NCBI GenBank assembly: GCA_005772895.1
Contig: SXIH01000009.1
Span: 1 to 44,120 of the forward strand
DNA from: Bacteroidota bacterium
Lineage (GTDB): Bacteria > Bacteroidota > Bacteroidia > 2-12-FULL-35-15
Direction of reading: 5' to 3'
Length of the DNA: 44,120 bases
In this document: piece by piece, positions 1 through 44,120 of the stretch
Layout of the letters: each line of letters begins with the position of its first letter
Position numbering within the stretch: the stretch's first letter is position 1
The notes under the pieces: generated by a model
Seen by the model: only the letters and a program-made list of their open reading frames with translations
The model's database searches: none
Told to the model about the DNA's origin: nothing
Program-made: the position numbers and the translations under genes

Positions 1-72
1 AGTGGTCGATTGCGGCAGTCTTGAAAACTGTTGACTGTAATAGGTCCGGGGGTTCGAATCCCTCTTTCTCCG
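1..72 (+). tRNA. tRNA-Ser (UGA anticodon), 5' end cut by window start
   Basis: The anticodon arm carries TGA in the context CTTGAAA. A long variable arm follows, as expected for a class II tRNA. The T-arm GGGGG-TTCGAAT-CCCTC (48-64) and the 3' acceptor strand TTTCTCC (65-71) with discriminator G72 are intact. The 5' acceptor strand and most of the D-stem lie before the window. CCA is not encoded. Confidence 0.93.
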
Positions 73-35871: not shown

Positions 35872-37062
35872 ATGAAGATATTACAGATTTGCAGTAAAAT
35901 TCCTTATGCCCCTAAAGATGGTGGTGGTATTGCAATGAATATCTTAACTCAAGGATTGATGAATCAAGGAAATTTGGTTCATGTTTTAGCAATTAGTACT
36001 CCCAAACATTTTTTGAATGAAGATGCGATTGATTCAGACTATAAAAGAAGTACTTCTTTTCAATCTGTTTTTATTGATACATCGGTAAAACCAGTTAATG
36101 CAATTCTTAATTTATTTAGCTCTAAATCATATAATGTTGTTCGTTTCTATTCACTAGCATTCGAAAAAGTGTTAATCGAAAAATTAAAGTCAGAACAATA
36201 CGATATTATTCAACTGGAATCACTTTGGGTGACACCTTATTTTGATGTAATACGAAAACATTCAAAAGCAAAAATTGTTCTTCGTTCACATAATGTAGAA
36301 TATTTGATTTGGGAACGATTGGCATCAGAAGCTACAGGTATGTTAAAAAAGAAGTATTTGAGTTTGCTTGCTAAACGTTTGAAAAATTATGAATTAAATT
36401 TATTAAATAAGTATGATGCAATTGCTTGTATAACGGAATTAGATGCTTCTGTGTTTAAAAAAGCGGGTTGCACAATTCCTATTGTTCATATTCCTTTTGG
36501 AATTGATTTAGAAAAATATAAAGTAGATGATACTGATTTAGAAAAGCCTTCTGTGTTTCATATTGGAGCAATGGATTGGCAGCCCAATATTGATGGTGTT
36601 AATTGGTTTTTGAACAACGCATGGGATAAATTAATTGCTTTGTACCCCTCGCTAAAATTATATTTAGCGGGAAAAAATATTTCGTCAAATTATAATCAAA
36701 AGAATGTTATTATTGATGGAGAAGTGGCAAACGCACATCGTTATATAAGTTCAAAATCAATTATGGTTATTCCACTTTCATCTGGAGGTGGAATTCGTGT
36801 CAAAATAATAGAAGGAATGGCTTTGGGTAAAACAATTATTTCTACTTCAATTGGAGCAGAAGGAATTGAGTATGAAAACAAAAAAAATATTTTGATTGCT
36901 GATTCTCCAAGTGAGTTTGTTGATGCTATAGACAAATGCGTAAATGATAGTACTTTTGCAGATATGCTAGGTAGAAATGCAAGAATATTGATTGAAACCA
37001 AACACAACAACAAACTTATTTGTAGTAAATTATCAGATTTCTATAAATCATTGCTTAATTAA
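35872..37062 (+). CDS. Glycosyltransferase family 4
   Basis: A 396-residue GT-B enzyme. The N-terminal Rossmann half begins ILQICSKIPYAPKDGGGIAMNILTQGL. The donor-binding C-terminal half contains FHIGAMDWQPNIDGVNWFLN and SSGGGIRVKIIEGMALGKTIISTSIGAEGI, the E-rich signature of GT4. It is probably cytoplasmic and membrane-associated in polysaccharide or LPS assembly. It starts 3 nt after the LptF/LptG stop, and its stop overlaps the next gene's start by one base. Sugar specificity is not predictable. Confidence 0.88.
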   Translation: MKILQICSKIPYAPKDGGGIAMNILTQGLMNQGNLVHVLAISTPKHFLNEDAIDSDYKRSTSFQSVFIDTSVKPVNAILNLFSSKSYNVVRFYSLAFEKVLIEKLKSEQYDIIQLESLWVTPYFDVIRKHSKAKIVLRSHNVEYLIWERLASEATGMLKKKYLSLLAKRLKNYELNLLNKYDAIACITELDASVFKKAGCTIPIVHIPFGIDLEKYKVDDTDLEKPSVFHIGAMDWQPNIDGVNWFLNNAWDKLIALYPSLKLYLAGKNISSNYNQKNVIIDGEVANAHRYISSKSIMVIPLSSGGGIRVKIIEGMALGKTIISTSIGAEGIEYENKKNILIADSPSEFVDAIDKCVNDSTFADMLGRNARILIETKHNNKLICSKLSDFYKSLLN

Positions 37063-38228
37063 TGAAACTATTCGTTCTTTTATCGCGAGTGCCTTATCCT
37101 CTTGAAAAAGGGGATAAACTTCGTGCGTTTAATCAGATTAAAGAGCTATCACGCAAACACCAAATAGTTTTATTTGCATTGAACGATACAAAGTTGGATG
37201 AGAAAGCAATGACAGAATTAAAAAAGTACTGTGTTGCAATTTCAATTGTAAAGTTTTCCAAATTTACCATCTTCTTTAATTTAGTAAGAGCTTTCTTTAA
37301 TGGAAAACCTTTGCAAGTAGGTTATTTCTATTTTGATAAAGCTCAAAAAAAGGTAGATGAATTAATAGCAAAGCATAAGCCTGATCATATCTATTGTCAA
37401 CTTATCCGCACAGCTGAATACATAAAAAAATATCCGCATATTCCAAAAACGTTGGATTATATGGATGTGTTTTCAAAAGGAATGGAAAGAAGAAAATCTA
37501 CCGAGCCATTTTATATGAAGCCTTTTTTGGCTATGGAGTATCGTAGATTAAAGAGATATGAAAACAAAGTGTTTGCTTATTTTACAACTAAAACAATTAT
37601 TACAGAACAGGATAAAAATTTTATTCCTCATCCTCAAAAACAAAATATTGTTGTTGTGCCAAATGGGGTAGATACTACTTACTTTAAACCAATTGTTCAC
37701 AAAAAAGAGTTCGATTTGTTGTTTAACGGTAACATGAATTACCCTCCGAATATTGAAAGCGTTGAATATCTGGTAGAAAAAGTAATGCCATTTGTATGGC
37801 ACAAATTTCCAAACACTCGTTTGTTGATTTCTGGAGCCTCTCCGAGTAAAGAAATTTTGGATTTAGCATCTGATAAAGTTATTGTTTCGGGTTGGGTAGA
37901 TGATATTAGAATGAATTTTGCAAAGTCGAAAATTTTGGTTGCACCTATGCAAATAAGCATAGGATTGCAAAATAAATTATTGGAAGCTATGGCTATGCAA
38001 CTTCCTTGTATTACATCTTCTTTAGCAAACAATGCATTAGGGGCTAAGCCTAACGAACAAATTCTAGTAGCAGATACTCCAGAGCAATATGCCCGTCATA
38101 TTATTGATCTTTTGCAAAATGAAGCAAAAGCTAAACAGATTGCTATGAATGGCTACCAATTTGTTGTGAATGGCTTTAATTGGCAGAGTACAACCGCTAT
38201 TTTGGAGAAATTAATCTCTCGTAAATAA
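37062..38228 (+). CDS. Glycosyltransferase, TIGR03087-like sugar transferase
   Basis: A 388-residue GT-B transferase. N-terminal sequence KLFVLLSRVPYPLEKGDKLRAFNQIKELSRKHQIVLFAL is close to the TIGR03087 type, sugar transferases known from exopolysaccharide loci. The C-terminal half has LLFNGNMNYPPNIESVEYLVEKVMPFVW and GLQNKLLEAMAMQLPCITSSLANNAL. Coupled to the GT4 gene by a TAATG overlap. No exosortase or PEP-CTERM genes are in the window, so the TIGR03087 comparison speaks only to sequence type. It ends 19 nt before the trp promoter -33 element. Confidence 0.85.
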   Translation: MKLFVLLSRVPYPLEKGDKLRAFNQIKELSRKHQIVLFALNDTKLDEKAMTELKKYCVAISIVKFSKFTIFFNLVRAFFNGKPLQVGYFYFDKAQKKVDELIAKHKPDHIYCQLIRTAEYIKKYPHIPKTLDYMDVFSKGMERRKSTEPFYMKPFLAMEYRRLKRYENKVFAYFTTKTIITEQDKNFIPHPQKQNIVVVPNGVDTTYFKPIVHKKEFDLLFNGNMNYPPNIESVEYLVEKVMPFVWHKFPNTRLLISGASPSKEILDLASDKVIVSGWVDDIRMNFAKSKILVAPMQISIGLQNKLLEAMAMQLPCITSSLANNALGAKPNEQILVADTPEQYARHIIDLLQNEAKAKQIAMNGYQFVVNGFNWQSTTAILEKLISRK

Positions 38229-38246
38229 TCTTTTTTAAAAATAAAT

Positions 38247-38278
38247 TTGCTTTTTAACTTTAAACCGACTTATATTTG
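38247..38278 (+). promoter_or_regulatory. trp operon promoter (-33 TTG, -7 TATATTTG)
   Basis: TTG at 38247-38249 and TATATTTG at 38271-38278 are 21 nt apart, fitting the Bacteroidota housekeeping consensus. Transcription should begin around 38284-38287, at or just before the leader-peptide ATG at 38287, leaving virtually no 5' leader. Confidence 0.8.
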
Positions 38279-38286
38279 TCCCAGAA

Positions 38287-38346
38287 ATGAAAAAACAATT
38301 ATTAAATAACATGTGGTGGTGGTCGTACTCTTTGAGGACGGCATAA
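38287..38346 (+). CDS. trpL: trp operon leader peptide
   Basis: A 19-codon frame encodes MKKQLLNNMWWWSYSLRTA and ends with TAA. The three consecutive Trp codons (38314-38322) are the sensing site of a trp attenuator. It lies between a strong promoter and the terminator at 38376, and just upstream of trpE. It is too short for standard gene prediction. Confidence 0.9.
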   Translation: MKKQLLNNMWWWSYSLRTA

Positions 38347-38407
38347 GCTATTATTTAATATTAAGATATTTTAATAACGCCTGTTCTCTATATGAACAGG
38401 CGTTTTT
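38314..38407 (+). promoter_or_regulatory. trp transcription attenuator with alternative hairpins
   Basis: Three competing helices are visible. Protector: 38322-38330 with 38334-38342 (one A-G mismatch, one T-G pair). Antiterminator: GAGGACGG (38334-38341) with CTGTTCTC (38381-38388), eight contiguous pairs including two G-U. Terminator: 38376-38386 with 38394-38404. When ribosomes stall at the Trp codons, the protector is blocked and the antiterminator can form. When Trp is plentiful, ribosomes reach the stop codon and cover 38334-38341, so the terminator forms. This is the classical ribosome-mediated scheme, inferred here by hand folding. Confidence 0.82.
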
Positions 38408-38409
38408 TT
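38376..38409 (+). terminator. trp attenuator terminator hairpin
   Basis: AACGCCTGTTC pairs perfectly with GAACAGGCGTT (11 bp) with loop TCTATAT, followed by a run of T residues. It ends 20 nt before the trpE start. Confidence 0.9.
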
Positions 38410-38428
38410 ATTGTCTTAACTCAAGCAA

Positions 38429-39838
38429 ATGAATTTTAAAATTACCATAACATCTAAAAAAATATTAGCAGATACTTTCACAACGGTGAGTATTTATTTG
38501 AAATTACGTGATAAATTTCCAAATAGTATTTTATTGGAGAGCTCCGATTATCATGGAAATGAAAATAGTTTTTCATTTATCTGTTGTAAACCCATCGCAG
38601 GAATAAAGGTGGAGAATGAAACAATTGTCAGTTCTTTCCCGGATGGCTCATCAGTAGTAAAAAAAATTGATAGATCGGTTTCTGTTTCAGAAGAAATAAT
38701 GGCGTTTGGAGATTGTTTTGAGATAGAAATGAATCTAGCTTTTGCAGATAAAGCAATGAATGGAATGTTTGGTTATATCGCTTTTGATGGAGTAAGATAT
38801 TTTGAAGAAATTGATATAAAATCTAAAATGAAAGAACAAAAGAGTATTCCTGATGTTTTTTATAATATTTATCAATTTGTTATTGCTATTGACCATTTCA
38901 AAGATGAAATTACAATCTTTCAACACTCGTTTTCAAATGATGACAATGGAATAGAGCTGTTGGAGACATATATAAAGAATAAAAATTTCGCTTCTTATAA
39001 ATTTAAATCAGATGGAAATGAAGTCTCAAATTTTACAGATGAAGAATTTATTGAAATAATTAAAAAAGGAAAATCACATTGCAAAAGAGGAGATGTATTT
39101 CAAATGGTGCTTTCTCGTGAATTTTCTCAGCAATTCAAAGGCGATGATTTTAATGTTTATAGAGCTTTGCGTTCAATAAATCCGTCACCATATTTGTTTT
39201 ATTTTGATTATGGTAATTTTAAATTATTTGGTTCTTCTCCGGAAGCACAATTGATAATTAAAAAGAATATAGCTTCTATACATCCTATTGCAGGTACTTT
39301 TAAACGTACAGGAAATGATGTATCGGATGCCGAATCAGCAGAAAAATTAAAATCTGATGTAAAAGAAAATGCTGAACACGTAATGCTGGTTGATTTAGCC
39401 AGAAATGATTTGAGCAGAAACTGTACTGACGTGAAAGTGGAGAAATTTAGAGAAATTCAATATTATTCTCATGTTATTCACCTAGTTTCAAATGTTTCGG
39501 GTAAATTAAAATCCAATGTGCCAATTATGAAAATTGTTGGAGATACCTTTCCTGCTGGTACATTGAGCGGAGCACCAAAACATAAAGCCATGCAGTTGAT
39601 TGATGCATACGAAAAAGGAAATAGAAGTTTTTATGGTGGATGTATTGGATTTTTGGGATTTGATGGTACATTTAATAGCGCAATTATGATTCGTTCCTTT
39701 TTGAGCAAGAATAATACACTTTTTTATCAAGCAGGTGCTGGTGTAGTGGAATCATCGAATGAAGTAAGTGAATTAAATGAAGTTAATAATAAGCTGGCAG
39801 CTTTGAAGAAGGCGATTGAGTTAGCTTCAGGCATTTGA
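38429..39838 (+). CDS. trpE: Anthranilate synthase component I
   Basis: A 469-residue chorismate-using enzyme that forms anthranilate with ammonia delivered by TrpG. The N-terminal part has the tryptophan-binding LLESS motif (about residues 35-39), so feedback inhibition is probably retained. The catalytic domain has KRGDVFQMVLSREFSQQF, IHPIAGTFKRTG, ENAEHVMLVDLARNDL, PAGTLSGAPKHKAMQLI and the terminal FYQAGAGVVESSNEVSELNE. It is the first structural gene after the attenuator. Confidence 0.96.
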   Translation: MNFKITITSKKILADTFTTVSIYLKLRDKFPNSILLESSDYHGNENSFSFICCKPIAGIKVENETIVSSFPDGSSVVKKIDRSVSVSEEIMAFGDCFEIEMNLAFADKAMNGMFGYIAFDGVRYFEEIDIKSKMKEQKSIPDVFYNIYQFVIAIDHFKDEITIFQHSFSNDDNGIELLETYIKNKNFASYKFKSDGNEVSNFTDEEFIEIIKKGKSHCKRGDVFQMVLSREFSQQFKGDDFNVYRALRSINPSPYLFYFDYGNFKLFGSSPEAQLIIKKNIASIHPIAGTFKRTGNDVSDAESAEKLKSDVKENAEHVMLVDLARNDLSRNCTDVKVEKFREIQYYSHVIHLVSNVSGKLKSNVPIMKIVGDTFPAGTLSGAPKHKAMQLIDAYEKGNRSFYGGCIGFLGFDGTFNSAIMIRSFLSKNNTLFYQAGAGVVESSNEVSELNEVNNKLAALKKAIELASGI

Positions 39839-39915: not shown

Positions 39916-40314
39916 ATGGGAAAGATTAAACAATTTGAGGATTTGGATATTTGGAAAGAAGCAACAAATATTGCTATTGAGATTTATTTAATTAGTGAAA
40001 GAGGAAAATTGAAAACAGATTTTGGTATGAAGGATCAAATTAGAAGAGCAGCTATGTCTATCTCTGATAATATTGCCGAAGGATTTGAATATGAAAGTAA
40101 TATGCAATTTATCAGATTTTTAAGGTATTCAAAAGGTTCGCCAGGTGAGTTAAGGAATAAGTTATATGTATTGAAAAAAGTAGATTTTATAGATGAAGAA
40201 TTTTATGAGTCTATGCATAAAAGATTGATAGATTTATCAAAACAAATTAGTGGATTTATAAAATACTTAAGAGAATTCGAGAGGAACAAGAATTTTAATA
40301 AACAGAGTAATTAA
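39916..40314 (+). CDS. Four-helix-bundle protein (S23 / 23S rRNA intervening-sequence family)
   Basis: A 132-residue helical protein with the family signature: KIKQFEDLDIWKEATNIAIEIY, FGMKDQIRRAAMSISDNIAEGFEY, FIRFLRYSKGSPGELRNKLYVLKKV, FYESMHKRLIDLSKQISGFIKYL. Members form four-helix bundles and are often encoded in intervening sequences of 23S rRNA genes or scattered singly in Bacteroidota genomes; their function is not established. It splits trpE from trpG and is bordered by simple-repeat arms in opposite orientation. It has no evident role in tryptophan synthesis. Its reading direction and spacing let it ride on the trp transcript. Confidence 0.9.
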   Translation: MGKIKQFEDLDIWKEATNIAIEIYLISERGKLKTDFGMKDQIRRAAMSISDNIAEGFEYESNMQFIRFLRYSKGSPGELRNKLYVLKKVDFIDEEFYESMHKRLIDLSKQISGFIKYLREFERNKNFNKQSN

Positions 40315-40355: not shown

Positions 40356-40922
40356 ATGAAGATATTGGTATTAGATAATTACGACAGTTTTACCTACAAC
40401 TTAGTTCACTACTTGGAAAAAGTGAGTGACGCTACAATTGAAGTTCATCGCAATGATAAAATTTCCTTGAAAGAAATTGAAAAGTTTGATAAAATTTTGT
40501 TGTCGCCCGGCCCAGGAATTCCTTCTGAAGCTGGAATATTATTAGATGTGATAAAAACGTATGCTTCTTCAAAAAGTATTTTAGGTGTTTGTCTCGGACA
40601 ACAAGCTATTGCAGAAGCCTTTGGTGGTTCATTGAATAATATGACGGAGGTATTTCATGGTGTTTCTACTCCAATTGAAATTGTTGCTGAAGATCCGTTA
40701 TTCAAAAATGTTCCTAAAAAATTTAATGTTGGTAGATATCATTCCTGGTGTGTTAATAAAAGTGATTTTCCAAAAGATTTGGAAATAACAGCTGTTGATG
40801 AAAAGGGAAACATTATGGCTTTGAAACATAAAACGTTTGATGTAAGTGGAGTGCAGTTCCATCCAGAGAGTGTTTTAACGGAGCACGGATTACAAATGAT
40901 TGAAAATTGGATTAAAAAATAA
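40356..40922 (+). CDS. trpG: Anthranilate synthase component II (glutamine amidotransferase)
   Basis: A 188-residue class I glutamine amidotransferase that hydrolyses glutamine to feed ammonia to TrpE. Motifs are LVLDNYDSFTYNLVHYLE, LLSPGPGIPSEAG, the nucleophile Cys79 in LGVCLGQQAIAEAFGG, and His169/Glu171 in VQFHPESVL. It may also serve para-aminobenzoate synthesis, as in bacteria with a single subunit; this cannot be judged here. Its stop overlaps the trpD start (TAATG). Confidence 0.95.
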   Translation: MKILVLDNYDSFTYNLVHYLEKVSDATIEVHRNDKISLKEIEKFDKILLSPGPGIPSEAGILLDVIKTYASSKSILGVCLGQQAIAEAFGGSLNNMTEVFHGVSTPIEIVAEDPLFKNVPKKFNVGRYHSWCVNKSDFPKDLEITAVDEKGNIMALKHKTFDVSGVQFHPESVLTEHGLQMIENWIKK

Positions 40923-41911
40923 TGAAGACTATACTAAATAATTTATTTGAACATAAAACTTTATCGCAAAGTGAAGCGAAAGAGGTGTTATTCAATATTG
41001 CCTCCGAAAAGTATAACTCTTCGCAAGTAGCAGCTTTTATGTCGGTTTATCTTATGCGTTCAATAACTGTTGAAGAATTGTCGGGATTCAGAGATGCGAT
41101 GTTGGAATTGTGTTTAAAAATAGAATTTGATTCAAATGAGTCGATTGATATTGTTGGTACGGGTGGCGATGGGAAAGATACTTTCAATATTTCAACTCTA
41201 TCTTGTTTTGTGGTTGCTGGAGCAGGAATAAAAGTAACCAAACATGGGAATTATGGTGTATCATCTATAAGTGGTTCTTCAAATGTGCTGGAAGCAATTG
41301 GCTATAAATTCACAAACGATATAAGTGTTTTGCAAAAGCAATTAGATAAATCAGGAATTTGTTTTTTGCACGCCCCTCTTTTTCATCCTGCAATGAAAAG
41401 TGTTGCGCCCATCAGAAAAGAATTGGGTGTTCGTACCTTTTTTAATATGCTTGGACCAGTTGTGAATCCTTGCCTTCCAAAATATCAATTGTTGGGTGTT
41501 TATAATTTAGAAATGGCTCGTTTGTATAATTATTTATTGCAGAATACAAAAACGGATTACTCTATTGTTCATTCCTTAGATGGATATGATGAAATTTCAT
41601 TGACTTCCGATTTTAAAGTTATTACAAAAGACAAAGAACAAATTTTTCAACCAGCATCTGTAGGATTCAATAAATTAAAACAAGAAGATCTTTTTGGAGG
41701 CGTATCAGTTGATACAGCAGCCAAATTGTTTTTATCGGTTTTAAACGGAGATGGAAGCTCTGCACAAAATAATGCTGTGGTCGTAAATGCGGCTACTGCC
41801 ATTCATTGTGTTTTCCCAGAGAAATCCTATACCGATTGTATTAAAGACGCAGAAGAATCGTTGTTATCGAAAAAGGCCTTGAATGTTTATAAATCTTTAA
41901 TGAATAATTAA
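40922..41911 (+). CDS. trpD: Anthranilate phosphoribosyltransferase
   Basis: A 329-residue type IV phosphoribosyltransferase that joins anthranilate to PRPP. Key stretches are VGTGGDGKDTFNIST (about 78-92; the PRPP-binding glycine loop), KHGNYGVSSISGSSNVLEAIG, FLHAPLFHPAMKSVAPIRKELGVRTFFNMLGPVVNP. Length is normal (about 340). Adjacent to trpC with no gap. Confidence 0.96.
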   Translation: MKTILNNLFEHKTLSQSEAKEVLFNIASEKYNSSQVAAFMSVYLMRSITVEELSGFRDAMLELCLKIEFDSNESIDIVGTGGDGKDTFNISTLSCFVVAGAGIKVTKHGNYGVSSISGSSNVLEAIGYKFTNDISVLQKQLDKSGICFLHAPLFHPAMKSVAPIRKELGVRTFFNMLGPVVNPCLPKYQLLGVYNLEMARLYNYLLQNTKTDYSIVHSLDGYDEISLTSDFKVITKDKEQIFQPASVGFNKLKQEDLFGGVSVDTAAKLFLSVLNGDGSSAQNNAVVVNAATAIHCVFPEKSYTDCIKDAEESLLSKKALNVYKSLMNN

Positions 41912-42721
41912 ATGAATATCCTTGAAAAAATAATAGCTCAAAAGCAAAAAGAAGTTGCAGAGAGACAAAGCCTTTATCCAGTAAAACTATTGGAACGTTC
42001 TACTTTTTTTGAATCACCAACAGTTTCTTTTAAAAAATATTTACTGAGAGAAGATAAAGTGGGAATTATTGCTGAATTTAAACGCAAATCCCCATCCAAA
42101 GGAATTATTAATAAATATGCTGATGTTGAGCGGACTTCTATTGGTTATATGCAGTCAGGAGCAAGCGCTTTGAGTGTGCTTACTGATAATGAATTCTTTG
42201 GAGGTAAAAACGAAGACTTAACAATAGCTCGTAAGTTTAATTATTGTCCGATACTCAGAAAAGATTTCATTATAGATGAATATCAAATTGTGGAAACAAA
42301 ATCTATTGGTGCGGATGTTGTTCTTTTATTAGCGAACGTTTTAACTGCTTCACAAATTAAGCAATATGCTCAATTTGCAAAATCTTTAGGATTAGAAGTA
42401 TTGTTGGAAATCCGAGATGAAGAAGAGTTGAAATCTGTAAATCAATTTGTGGATGTTGTGGGTGTAAACAACCGTAATTTGAAAGACTTTACAGTAAATG
42501 TTTCACAATCCTTCAAACTGTCAAATCTAATTCCTTCTGATTTCATAAAAATTTCAGAAAGTGGAATTGATTCAGCTAATACTATTGTTGAATTGAGTGA
42601 TGCAGGCTTTAAAGGATTTCTAATGGGTGAATCGTTTATGAAAAATAATCGTCCAGAAAGGGCTTGTGCAAATTTTATTAAAGAAGTAAATACATTAAAA
42701 AATAGTTTAATAACTGTATGA
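41912..42721 (+). CDS. trpC: Indole-3-glycerol-phosphate synthase
   Basis: A 269-residue TIM-barrel enzyme that closes the indole ring with loss of CO2 and water. Catalytic motif GIIAEFKRKSPSKG has Glu55 and Lys57. Also present are SGASALSVLTDNEFFGG, ILRKDFIIDEYQIVETKSIGADVVLLL, VVGVNNRNLKDF and KISESGIDS. It is a single-function protein: trpF is encoded separately downstream, with a GNAT gene in between. Confidence 0.96.
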   Translation: MNILEKIIAQKQKEVAERQSLYPVKLLERSTFFESPTVSFKKYLLREDKVGIIAEFKRKSPSKGIINKYADVERTSIGYMQSGASALSVLTDNEFFGGKNEDLTIARKFNYCPILRKDFIIDEYQIVETKSIGADVVLLLANVLTASQIKQYAQFAKSLGLEVLLEIRDEEELKSVNQFVDVVGVNNRNLKDFTVNVSQSFKLSNLIPSDFIKISESGIDSANTIVELSDAGFKGFLMGESFMKNNRPERACANFIKEVNTLKNSLITV

Positions 42722-42722
42722 C

Positions 42723-43211
42723 ATGAATTTAAAATTTAAAAAAGCAACAAAAGCAGATGTAGCATTAATTGCTCAATTGGCGGATAGTATTTGGAGAAAA
42801 CATTATATCACTATAATAACAATGAAACAAATTGATTATATGTTGGAATTGATGTATTCGCCTGTTAGTCTTGAAAAACAAATGGATGAAGGGCATGAAT
42901 TCACATTGGTTTATAGCAAAGAAAAGCCCATTGGCTACATTTCATTAAGTACTGTTGACGGAAAGAATTATTTCTTACATAAGTTTTATATAGAAGTGGA
43001 AGATCAGGGAAAAGGAGTTGGTTCTGAATTATTCTCTCATGTTCTACAACAAATGAAAAATGCTGAATCAATTGAACTCTGTGTAAATAGAGAAAATTTT
43101 AAAACAGTAAATTTTTATTTCAAACATGGATTTGTAATTAAAAAAATAATAAATCAAGACATTGGTGGTGGATTTTTTATGAATGATTTTGTTATGATAA
43201 AGATGATATAA
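42723..43211 (+). CDS. GNAT family N-acetyltransferase
   Basis: A 162-residue GCN5-related acetyltransferase. The acetyl-CoA loop is DQGKGVGSELFSHVLQQM (QGKGVG), preceded by strand FLHKFYIEVE and followed by ELCVNRENFKTVNFYFKHGFVI, the family's C-terminal strand and helix. Substrate unknown. It is inserted between trpC and trpF with spacers of 1 nt on each side, so it is fully integrated in the trp operon. That tight packing argues against a recent random insertion and for co-expression with tryptophan synthesis. No known step of the pathway needs an acetyltransferase. Confidence 0.9.
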   Translation: MNLKFKKATKADVALIAQLADSIWRKHYITIITMKQIDYMLELMYSPVSLEKQMDEGHEFTLVYSKEKPIGYISLSTVDGKNYFLHKFYIEVEDQGKGVGSELFSHVLQQMKNAESIELCVNRENFKTVNFYFKHGFVIKKIINQDIGGGFFMNDFVMIKMI

Positions 43212-43212
43212 A

Positions 43213-43845
43213 ATGTTTTTAAAGATATGTGGATTAAAAGATCCGGAAAATATAAAACAAGTAGCTGCCTTAAAACCCAATTATATGGGTTTTATATTCT
43301 ACCCTCAATCAAAACGATTTGTTGGCGATGATTTTGTCATGCCTTCTGTTTCACCTGAAATTAAGAAAGTAGGAGTCTTTGTTAACGCCAACGCTAGTTT
43401 CATTATTGATAAAATTGACGAATATAAGTTGGATTTAATTCAATTACATGGAAACGAAACACCCGAGTTTTGCGAAGTATTAAATCATATTGTTCCGGTA
43501 ATAAAAGCATTTGGTATTGATGAGACGTTTGATTTTAATGCTCTCGAATTGTACAAGAATAGTTGCAGCTATTTTTTATTTGACTCAAAAACCAAAGAAT
43601 ATGGTGGTAGTGGAAAACAATTTGATTGGAATTTATTGGAAAAGTATGACAATAGCGTTCCGTTTTTTTTAAGCGGTGGTATTGGGTTGGAAGAGATTGA
43701 AAAATTGAAAAATTGGAAGATTGAAAAATTGAAAAATTATGTTGTTGACGTGAATAGCTTGTTTGAAACTGAGCCAGGAATAAAAGAAATTAAAAAACTA
43801 GAAAAATTATTAATGAAACATGAAAATTTAAGTCTGACTGATTAA
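43213..43845 (+). CDS. trpF: Phosphoribosylanthranilate isomerase
   Basis: A 210-residue TIM-barrel enzyme carrying out the Amadori rearrangement before TrpC. Catalytic Cys6 is in LKICGLKDPENI and Asp124 in FLFDSKTKEYGGSG. The phosphate-binding end is FFLSGGIGLEEI and VVDVNSLFETEPGIKE. Helix 7, residues 163-175 (EKLKNWKIEKLKN), is encoded by GAAAAATT-type simple repeats at 43699-43737, yet its length matches the family, so the protein is probably functional. A C/T-rich arm downstream of the gene is complementary to that stretch. Confidence 0.93.
   Translation: MFLKICGLKDPENIKQVAALKPNYMGFIFYPQSKRFVGDDFVMPSVSPEIKKVGVFVNANASFIIDKIDEYKLDLIQLHGNETPEFCEVLNHIVPVIKAFGIDETFDFNALELYKNSCSYFLFDSKTKEYGGSGKQFDWNLLEKYDNSVPFFLSGGIGLEEIEKLKNWKIEKLKNYVVDVNSLFETEPGIKEIKKLEKLLMKHENLSLTD
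43699..43739 (+). repeat. GAAAAATT-type simple repeat within trpF
   Basis: GAAAAATTGAAAAATTGGAA followed by GATTGAAAAATTGAAAAATT has an 8-nt period. From 43702 to 43726, 23 of 25 bases are complementary to the arm at 43851-43878. Confidence 0.7.
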
Positions 43846-43887: not shown

Positions 43888-44120
43888 ATGAATTATCAAG
43901 TTAACGAAAAAGGGTATTACGGAAATGTTGGTGGGGCATTTATTCCAGAGATGCTTTTTCCAAACGTGGAAGAACTTCGAGAAAAATATTTATCTATTAT
44001 TCAAGAAGAGAGTTTTCAACTTGAATTGAACGACTTGTTACGCGATTATGTTGGAAGGCCTTCGCCATTGTATTTTGCTAAACGACTTTCTGAACATTAT
44101 AAAACAAATATTTATTTAAA
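43888..44120 (+). CDS. trpB: Tryptophan synthase beta chain, N-terminal part (cut by window end)
   Basis: The first 77 codons of trp[26 protein letters not shown] and [24 protein letters not shown]. These match the N-terminal segment of the PLP enzyme that makes tryptophan from indole and serine. The PLP lysine lies beyond the window. The gene continues past 44120; trpA is expected next. Confidence 0.94.

Follow-up and report, generated by a model that had tools for sequence, protein, structure and literature searches.

The window, by which we mean the whole stretch of 44,120 nucleotides that was analyzed, carries a tryptophan operon on its plus strand, and coordinates refer to the window unless another contig is named. 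The first gene is trpE (anthranilate synthase component I, 38429-39838), followed by trpG (40356-40922), trpD (40922-41911), trpC (41912-42721), trpF (43213-43845), and trpB, which starts at 43888, continues past the window end, and was identified by eye from its opening residues; the order is thus trpE-trpG-trpD-trpC-trpF-trpB. Two other genes are interspersed. The one between trpE and trpG (39916-40314) encodes a four-helix-bundle protein (TIGR02436, 23S rRNA intervening sequence protein, PF05635), and the one between trpC and trpF (42723-43211) encodes a GNAT acetyltransferase. The upstream neighbor of the operon is a glycosyltransferase gene on the same strand (37062-38228). At positions 1-72 (plus strand), a match clipped by the window start scores 31.8 bits with the Rfam tRNA model, though ARAGORN does not report it.

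The leader upstream of trpE

All leader features lie on the plus strand between the glycosyltransferase gene and trpE. The sequence contains a -7 box of the type associated with the main Bacteroidota sigma factor, TATATTTG, at 38271-38278, which fits the consensus TAnnTTTG. The TTTG at 38246-38249, 21 nt upstream of this box and likewise read from the sequence, is a possible -33 element. A sigma-70 promoter scan found no site on the plus strand. In Flavobacterium psychrophilum the TAnnTTTG box is reported at -12 to -5 (PMC9723704), and placing the window's box at the same distance gives a predicted transcription start of 38283, with the ATG of a short frame following after 4 nt. The predicted 5' leader is therefore AGAA (38283-38286).

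The ATG at 38287 opens a frame of 19 codons, MKKQLLNNMWWWSYSLRTA (38287-38346, stop codon at 38344-38346), with three consecutive Trp codons at 38314-38322. Folding and the swap tests described below place an outer stem, P0, around the Trp codons (38300-38309 with 38351-38360). The protector hairpin, 1:2, spans 38322-38342 and pairs 38322-38330 with 38334-38342. The intrinsic terminator hairpin, 3:4, spans 38376-38404 and is followed by a T run; it was the single terminator-like site found by a terminator scan of 38200-38450, where 0.0 were expected, and it is further supported by covariation. The original prediction had listed the promoter, the frame, its Trp codons, the protector, and the terminator, and each of these is where it was said to be. 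Its antiterminator (38334-38341 with 38381-38388) involves nearly the same nucleotides, but the eight pairs with two G-U proposed for it can be improved upon. In the better version, 2:3 (38334-38388), GAGGACGGC (38334-38342) pairs with GCC-U-GUUCUC (38379-38388) through nine pairs, with one bulged U and one G-U.

Leaders in relatives and across the phylum

A TrpE search at an E value of 1e-60 was positive for 19 of 59 genomes (the source genome included), and a further eighty named loci were taken as the best 80 of 272; because both sets were selected by similarity to the window's TrpE, they are not a random sample. From 100 loci, two duplicates were removed. Among the 98 distinct loci (the window, L001, is one), three could not be judged: L007 and L027, which are cut by a contig end, and L094. 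This left ninety-five assessable loci. We scored a leader as present if the region upstream of trpE contained a frame with WW or WxW and, after it, a hairpin leading into a T run. Ninety of the ninety-five loci, including the window, have such a Trp-rich frame and terminator (90/96 if L094 is counted as a loss), and all ninety hairpins have energies of -11 kcal/mol or better. Among 950 dinucleotide shuffles of the ninety-five upstream regions, the loose criterion was satisfied once and the strict criterion never.

No WW or WxW frame was found in the remaining five assessable loci (L006, L012, L018, L040, L054). The original prediction had staked itself on relatives that retain trpE also retaining the Trp codons and stems, which holds for ninety of the ninety-five loci (the window's among them), with these five exceptions. 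The Trp run and hairpin are thus conserved and occasionally lost. One of the exceptions, L006, belongs to the window's genus. This locus keeps trpE and (by eye) the glycosyltransferase gene, but between them, upstream of 1501, the Trp leader frame and terminator are absent; the attenuator has apparently been lost. In L094 (upstream of 528), the second arm of the terminator stands alone before trpE, fused to unrelated sequence that resembles the end of a tRNA gene, and the junction looks like an insertion or an assembly join. The trp genes themselves are apparently patchy in the window's genus, since only 8 of 36 genomes (the source genome included) have a TrpE match at an E value of 1e-60.

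We also used a model, R1, trained on twenty-six leaders, some RF01692-positive and others not. Known members of the window's genus (L001-L008) were excluded from training; named MAG loci such as L023 may also belong to that genus. R1 finds the window's leader with 50.2 bits (E = 4.6e-10), and the runner-up within the window has an E value of 0.032. Among 296 genomes drawn evenly from Bacteroidota, with the source genome included, R1 matches 72 at an E value of 0.01 and the curated family RF01692 (Bacteroid-trp) matches 29 at 0.001, 27 of them above its cut-off, so that the ratio between the two is rough given the different E limits.

We inspected fifty of the R1 places, consisting of the thirty best loci returned and twenty weaker ones chosen by hand (E values from 5.5e-8 to 0.003). 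A script recognized a Trp leader in forty-six, and L130 and L142 were added by eye; no Trp leader was found at L153 or L157. A trp gene lies within the stretch at forty-seven of the fifty places and is absent in L141, L153, and L157. The gene that comes first varies by lineage: trpD-trpF follows the leader in L136, L145, L147-L149, and L152. In L150 the leader and the start of the trpE match are separated by well over 1 kb. Six matches (L138-L141, L155, and L156) come from another class of the phylum.

The promoter box recurs with the leaders. It is found in the same span before 76 of 90 leader ATGs, versus 1 of 231 other ATGs in those upstream regions. A predicted 5' leader could be assigned in eighty-three cases, with a median length of 10 nt; seventy-six measure 0-15 nt and seven measure 34-39 nt. 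The other seven leaders either lie too close to the end of the stretch (L008, L020, L056) or have no box (L014, L015, L016, L047). Start codons were picked by a rule that favored ATGs close to a -7 box, but other rules give similar values, with 0-15 nt in 74 of 81 box-bearing leaders when the most upstream in-frame ATG is taken and in 74 of 82 when the nearest is taken. A Shine-Dalgarno-like motif was flagged in only two of the ninety leaders, and the flag on L008 is a slicing artefact; translation in Bacteroidota is reported to begin without Shine-Dalgarno sequences (PMC9723704). In predicted length, the 5' leaders fall far below what is usual: 37 of 83 are at most 9 nt long, versus about 3.7 per cent of 5' UTRs under 10 nt reported for Bacteroides thetaiotaomicron (PMC7366714). 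The genome-wide median in F. psychrophilum is given as 24 nt, with 5.5 per cent of transcripts leaderless (PMC9723704). Near-leaderless loading is therefore best described as a tendency of these predicted leaders, neither specific to the window nor universal. The suggestion of a transcription start at or beside the ATG was about right as a prediction, with 4 nt in the window and 0-15 nt in 76 of the 83 leaders with a box.

The source genome (G000) holds a second leader, L101, on the minus strand of contig C26, before a prephenate dehydratase gene. Its box, TATCTTTG (2315-2308), is followed 18 nt downstream by an ATG (2289) that opens the frame MTQLNRYFFFPFYPGSYTGHPGRLICLIKR, with a run of Phe codons (MTQLNRYFFFPFY...) and the Phe/Tyr-rich peptide segment YFFFPFY. 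A terminator follows at 2180-2147 (-27.6 kcal/mol), and pairing of its first arm with the leader is predicted to be possible at -16.3 kcal/mol. L101 is likely a second attenuator of the same kind and, as judged from its sequence, supports leader-peptide attenuation as a general strategy in the source organism. A search for HisG in this genome, which is 93 per cent complete, returned no match, which leaves no his leader for comparison.

These results bear on the idea that something other than a ribosome senses tryptophan, such as a Trp-binding protein, a riboswitch, or a T-box type tRNA sensor, with the Trp codons being incidental. The leader folds better than chance (38283-38412, z score of -5.59), and it is still structured once the terminator is removed (-2.37), which such a sensor would explain. 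At Rfam gathering scores, however, the window contains tRNA genes only and no riboswitch or T-box. Leaders from distant lineages have little in common except the Trp run (which our search criterion required), and the same genome places a Phe run before its prephenate dehydratase gene. We consider a sensor of this type highly unlikely and favor a translating ribosome.

Pairing and predicted switching

Within Flavobacteriaceae, the antiterminator varies too little for covariation to be visible (a score of 0.034 versus 0.029 when shuffled, with a slide of +3 scoring higher at 0.049). We therefore chose swap tests between lineages, in which region 2 (34 nt beginning 6 nt past the Trp codons) was paired with region 3 of its own leader or of other leaders. 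For twenty-five leaders, picked by hand to represent one per lineage, the cognate mean was -15.67 kcal/mol versus -10.20 kcal/mol for swapped pairs. The cognate partner ranked first in eight of these and among the top three in eighteen; the window's ranked 6th of 25. The difference held for twenty-six leaders that do not follow the most common flavobacterial pattern (-14.99 versus -11.93 kcal/mol; L050 and L058 in this set are flavobacterial). It also held for all ninety leaders (-13.62 versus -11.43 kcal/mol). None of 20,000 permutations of the twenty-five leaders was as good, nor were any of 20,000 swaps of the outer stem in either 18 or 66 leaders, though these permutation figures are optimistic owing to the relatedness of the leaders. 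Regions 2 and 3 thus differ by lineage yet remain complementary.

Taken on its own, the window's antiterminator is marginal, with a fraction of 0.04 of region 2 dinucleotide shuffles pairing as well; it becomes firm once relatives are included. The corresponding value is 0.05 or less in fifty-five of the ninety leaders. The terminator covaries. In an alignment of seventeen leaders all cells are paired and six pairs have changed on both sides, giving 28 cells with two-sided changes versus 8.1 after shuffling, and sixty-five flavobacterial and similar leaders give 13 versus 0.8.

Because the glycosyltransferase gene is on the same strand and ends 148 nt before the hairpin, the hairpin could be nothing more than the terminator of that gene, and the Trp frame a chance reading. 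Yet a promoter box sits between the two, the frame and hairpin occur together before trpE or trpD-trpF across the phylum but in just one of 950 shuffles, and regions 2 and 3 retain their complementarity. We regard this explanation as extremely improbable, and return to the attenuator reading.

We modeled switching by constrained folding of RNA that ends at 38392. The predicted probability of the antiterminator was 0.014 in free RNA; it rose to 0.97-0.999 when a ribosome occupied the Trp codons and fell to 0.0 when one sat at the stop codon. The E. coli K-12 trpL leader behaved in the same way. But shuffles of the middle part of the window also pass the switch test, in 54 of 300 cases under strict rules and in 134 of 300 under looser ones. 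For six relatives, 5 to 47 of 300 shuffles pass the strict test. With shuffles passing so often, we rejected constrained folding as sole evidence for switching; the results are consistent with it and do not amount to proof. Among the ninety leaders, forty-three pass the strict test. A stalled ribosome leaves at least five antiterminator pairs in all ninety, and a ribosome at the stop codon leaves at most two in seventy-three. In free RNA there are at most two in forty-six, and in the other forty-four the untranslated RNA is not predicted to close off region 2. In Pontibacter the stop codon lies 17-20 nt past region 2, so that a ribosome there would hardly cover it, and this leader must require some other timing.

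Even with a stalled ribosome, the predicted minimum for the full-length RNA still contains the terminator (-21.0 kcal/mol), as it does for E. coli, and antitermination would therefore have to be kinetic. The window's antiterminator is weak relative to its own terminator (-10.7 versus -17.5 kcal/mol), whereas the same program gives -14.0 and -13.4 kcal/mol, respectively, for E. coli. These values are consistent with the earlier suggestion of a weak or tuned antiterminator.

Proposed mechanism and relation to known systems

The region 38283-38409 is very probably a ribosome-mediated trp transcription attenuator, with the mechanism as a whole predicted as follows. When charged Trp-tRNA is ample, the ribosome would run on to the stop codon (38344-38346) and mask region 2 (38334-38342); the terminator (38376-38404) would then form and end transcription near 38409. 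When it is scarce, the ribosome would stall on 38314-38322 and cover the first strand of the protector (38322-38330). Region 2 would then be available to 38379-38388 as a pairing partner, and RNA polymerase would continue into trpE. Should translation fail to begin, P0 and the protector would sequester region 2, with termination as the default. The ribosome would load onto a nearly leaderless RNA that has no Shine-Dalgarno site.

The anatomy of this leader, its conservation, and complementarity that is kept through change are established; from these we infer stalling, termination, antitermination, dependence on Trp, and the position of the 5' end. As in other trp-type attenuators, a short frame with tandem Trp codons precedes a trp operon and an intrinsic terminator precedes its first gene. 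The antiterminator is mutually exclusive with both the protector and the terminator, marginally so if the window is considered alone. The reading put forward in the original prediction is therefore supported by the position of the leader, its Trp codons, the terminator, pairings that exclude one another, and conservation accompanied by compensating changes.

Termination would yield an RNA of about 127 nt that begins 4 nt before the ATG. It could be argued that the leader is translated and terminates as proposed, but that its main output acts in trans, either as this short RNA or as the peptide, for which rnTrpL/peTrpL of Sinorhizobium meliloti sets a precedent (PMC7298713). We find this very doubtful as the main function, as the peptide is variable among lineages outside of the Trp run; moreover, a trans-acting output would be compatible with attenuation and does not exclude it. 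Attenuation in cis remains our preferred reading.

It is likely that many members of the phylum, which is reported to initiate without Shine-Dalgarno sequences, share one trp attenuator design; RF01692 covers only part of its range and leaves out the terminator and antiterminator. A broader hypothesis, which we offer only tentatively and think somewhat unlikely, is that a single design without a Shine-Dalgarno site, mostly with 0-15 nt before the ATG, spans all Bacteroidota. A ribosome loading at the 5' end would both sense Trp and melt the outer stem, near-leaderless initiation would set operon output alongside Trp-tRNA, and Bacteroid-trp would be a fragment of the whole. How the sensing ribosome loads in time on a near-leaderless RNA becomes directly testable in this system.

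Several published systems resemble this leader. Enterobacterial trpL (RF00513, Trp_leader) shares the tandem Trp codons, protector, antiterminator, and terminator, though the window scores 18.9 bits against a threshold of 41. Unlike enterobacterial trpL, the window has a predicted 5' leader of 4 nt and no Shine-Dalgarno motif, region 2 lies within the frame before the stop codon, and an outer stem surrounds the Trp codons. A leaderless trp leader is not itself new. In S. meliloti the trpL frame is at or adjoining the RNA 5' end; that species belongs to another phylum, and its RNA is reported to begin with the ATG itself rather than, as predicted here, 4 nt before it (PMC7298713). The ilvBNC leader of Corynebacterium glutamicum has also been discussed as a leaderless mRNA (PMC11857589). 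In 2010, authors who added Firmicutes noted that no leader-peptide system was known to have been shown outside Proteobacteria and Actinobacteria (PMC2965389).

Within the phylum, the same mechanism has been proposed for amino-acid operon leaders of F. psychrophilum, where strong indications of control by leader peptides are reported and 5' elements upstream of pheA and hisG are named (PMC9723704). The main text of that paper contains neither 'trp' nor 'tryptophan', and neither this anatomy nor a trp leader was found in it. We recognized no description of this anatomy in the Bacteroidota attenuator literature that we covered; subscription papers, including a 2010 comparative analysis of attenuation, were mostly outside its scope, so an earlier account is possible.

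The nearest family is RF01692, listed in PMC2864571, which also occurs in Bacteroidota before trp genes and has tandem Trp codons enclosed by an outer stem. The window scores 28.1 bits against its gathering score of 49, and a search of the source genome with RF01692 at an E value of 0.001 gave no match. Nine of twenty relatives' loci tested reach the threshold (two of the twenty, L040 and L054, have no Trp leader by our criterion). As it fails the curated threshold, we did not file the window's leader in RF01692. Given RF01692 and the published leaderless trpL of Sinorhizobium, the novelty is smaller than the original prediction implied. The leader is instead a new, diverged relative of a known kind of trp leader. 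Because the RF01692 consensus stops in the first arm of the terminator, and draws neither terminator nor antiterminator, the main addition made here is the full architecture together with its wider range.
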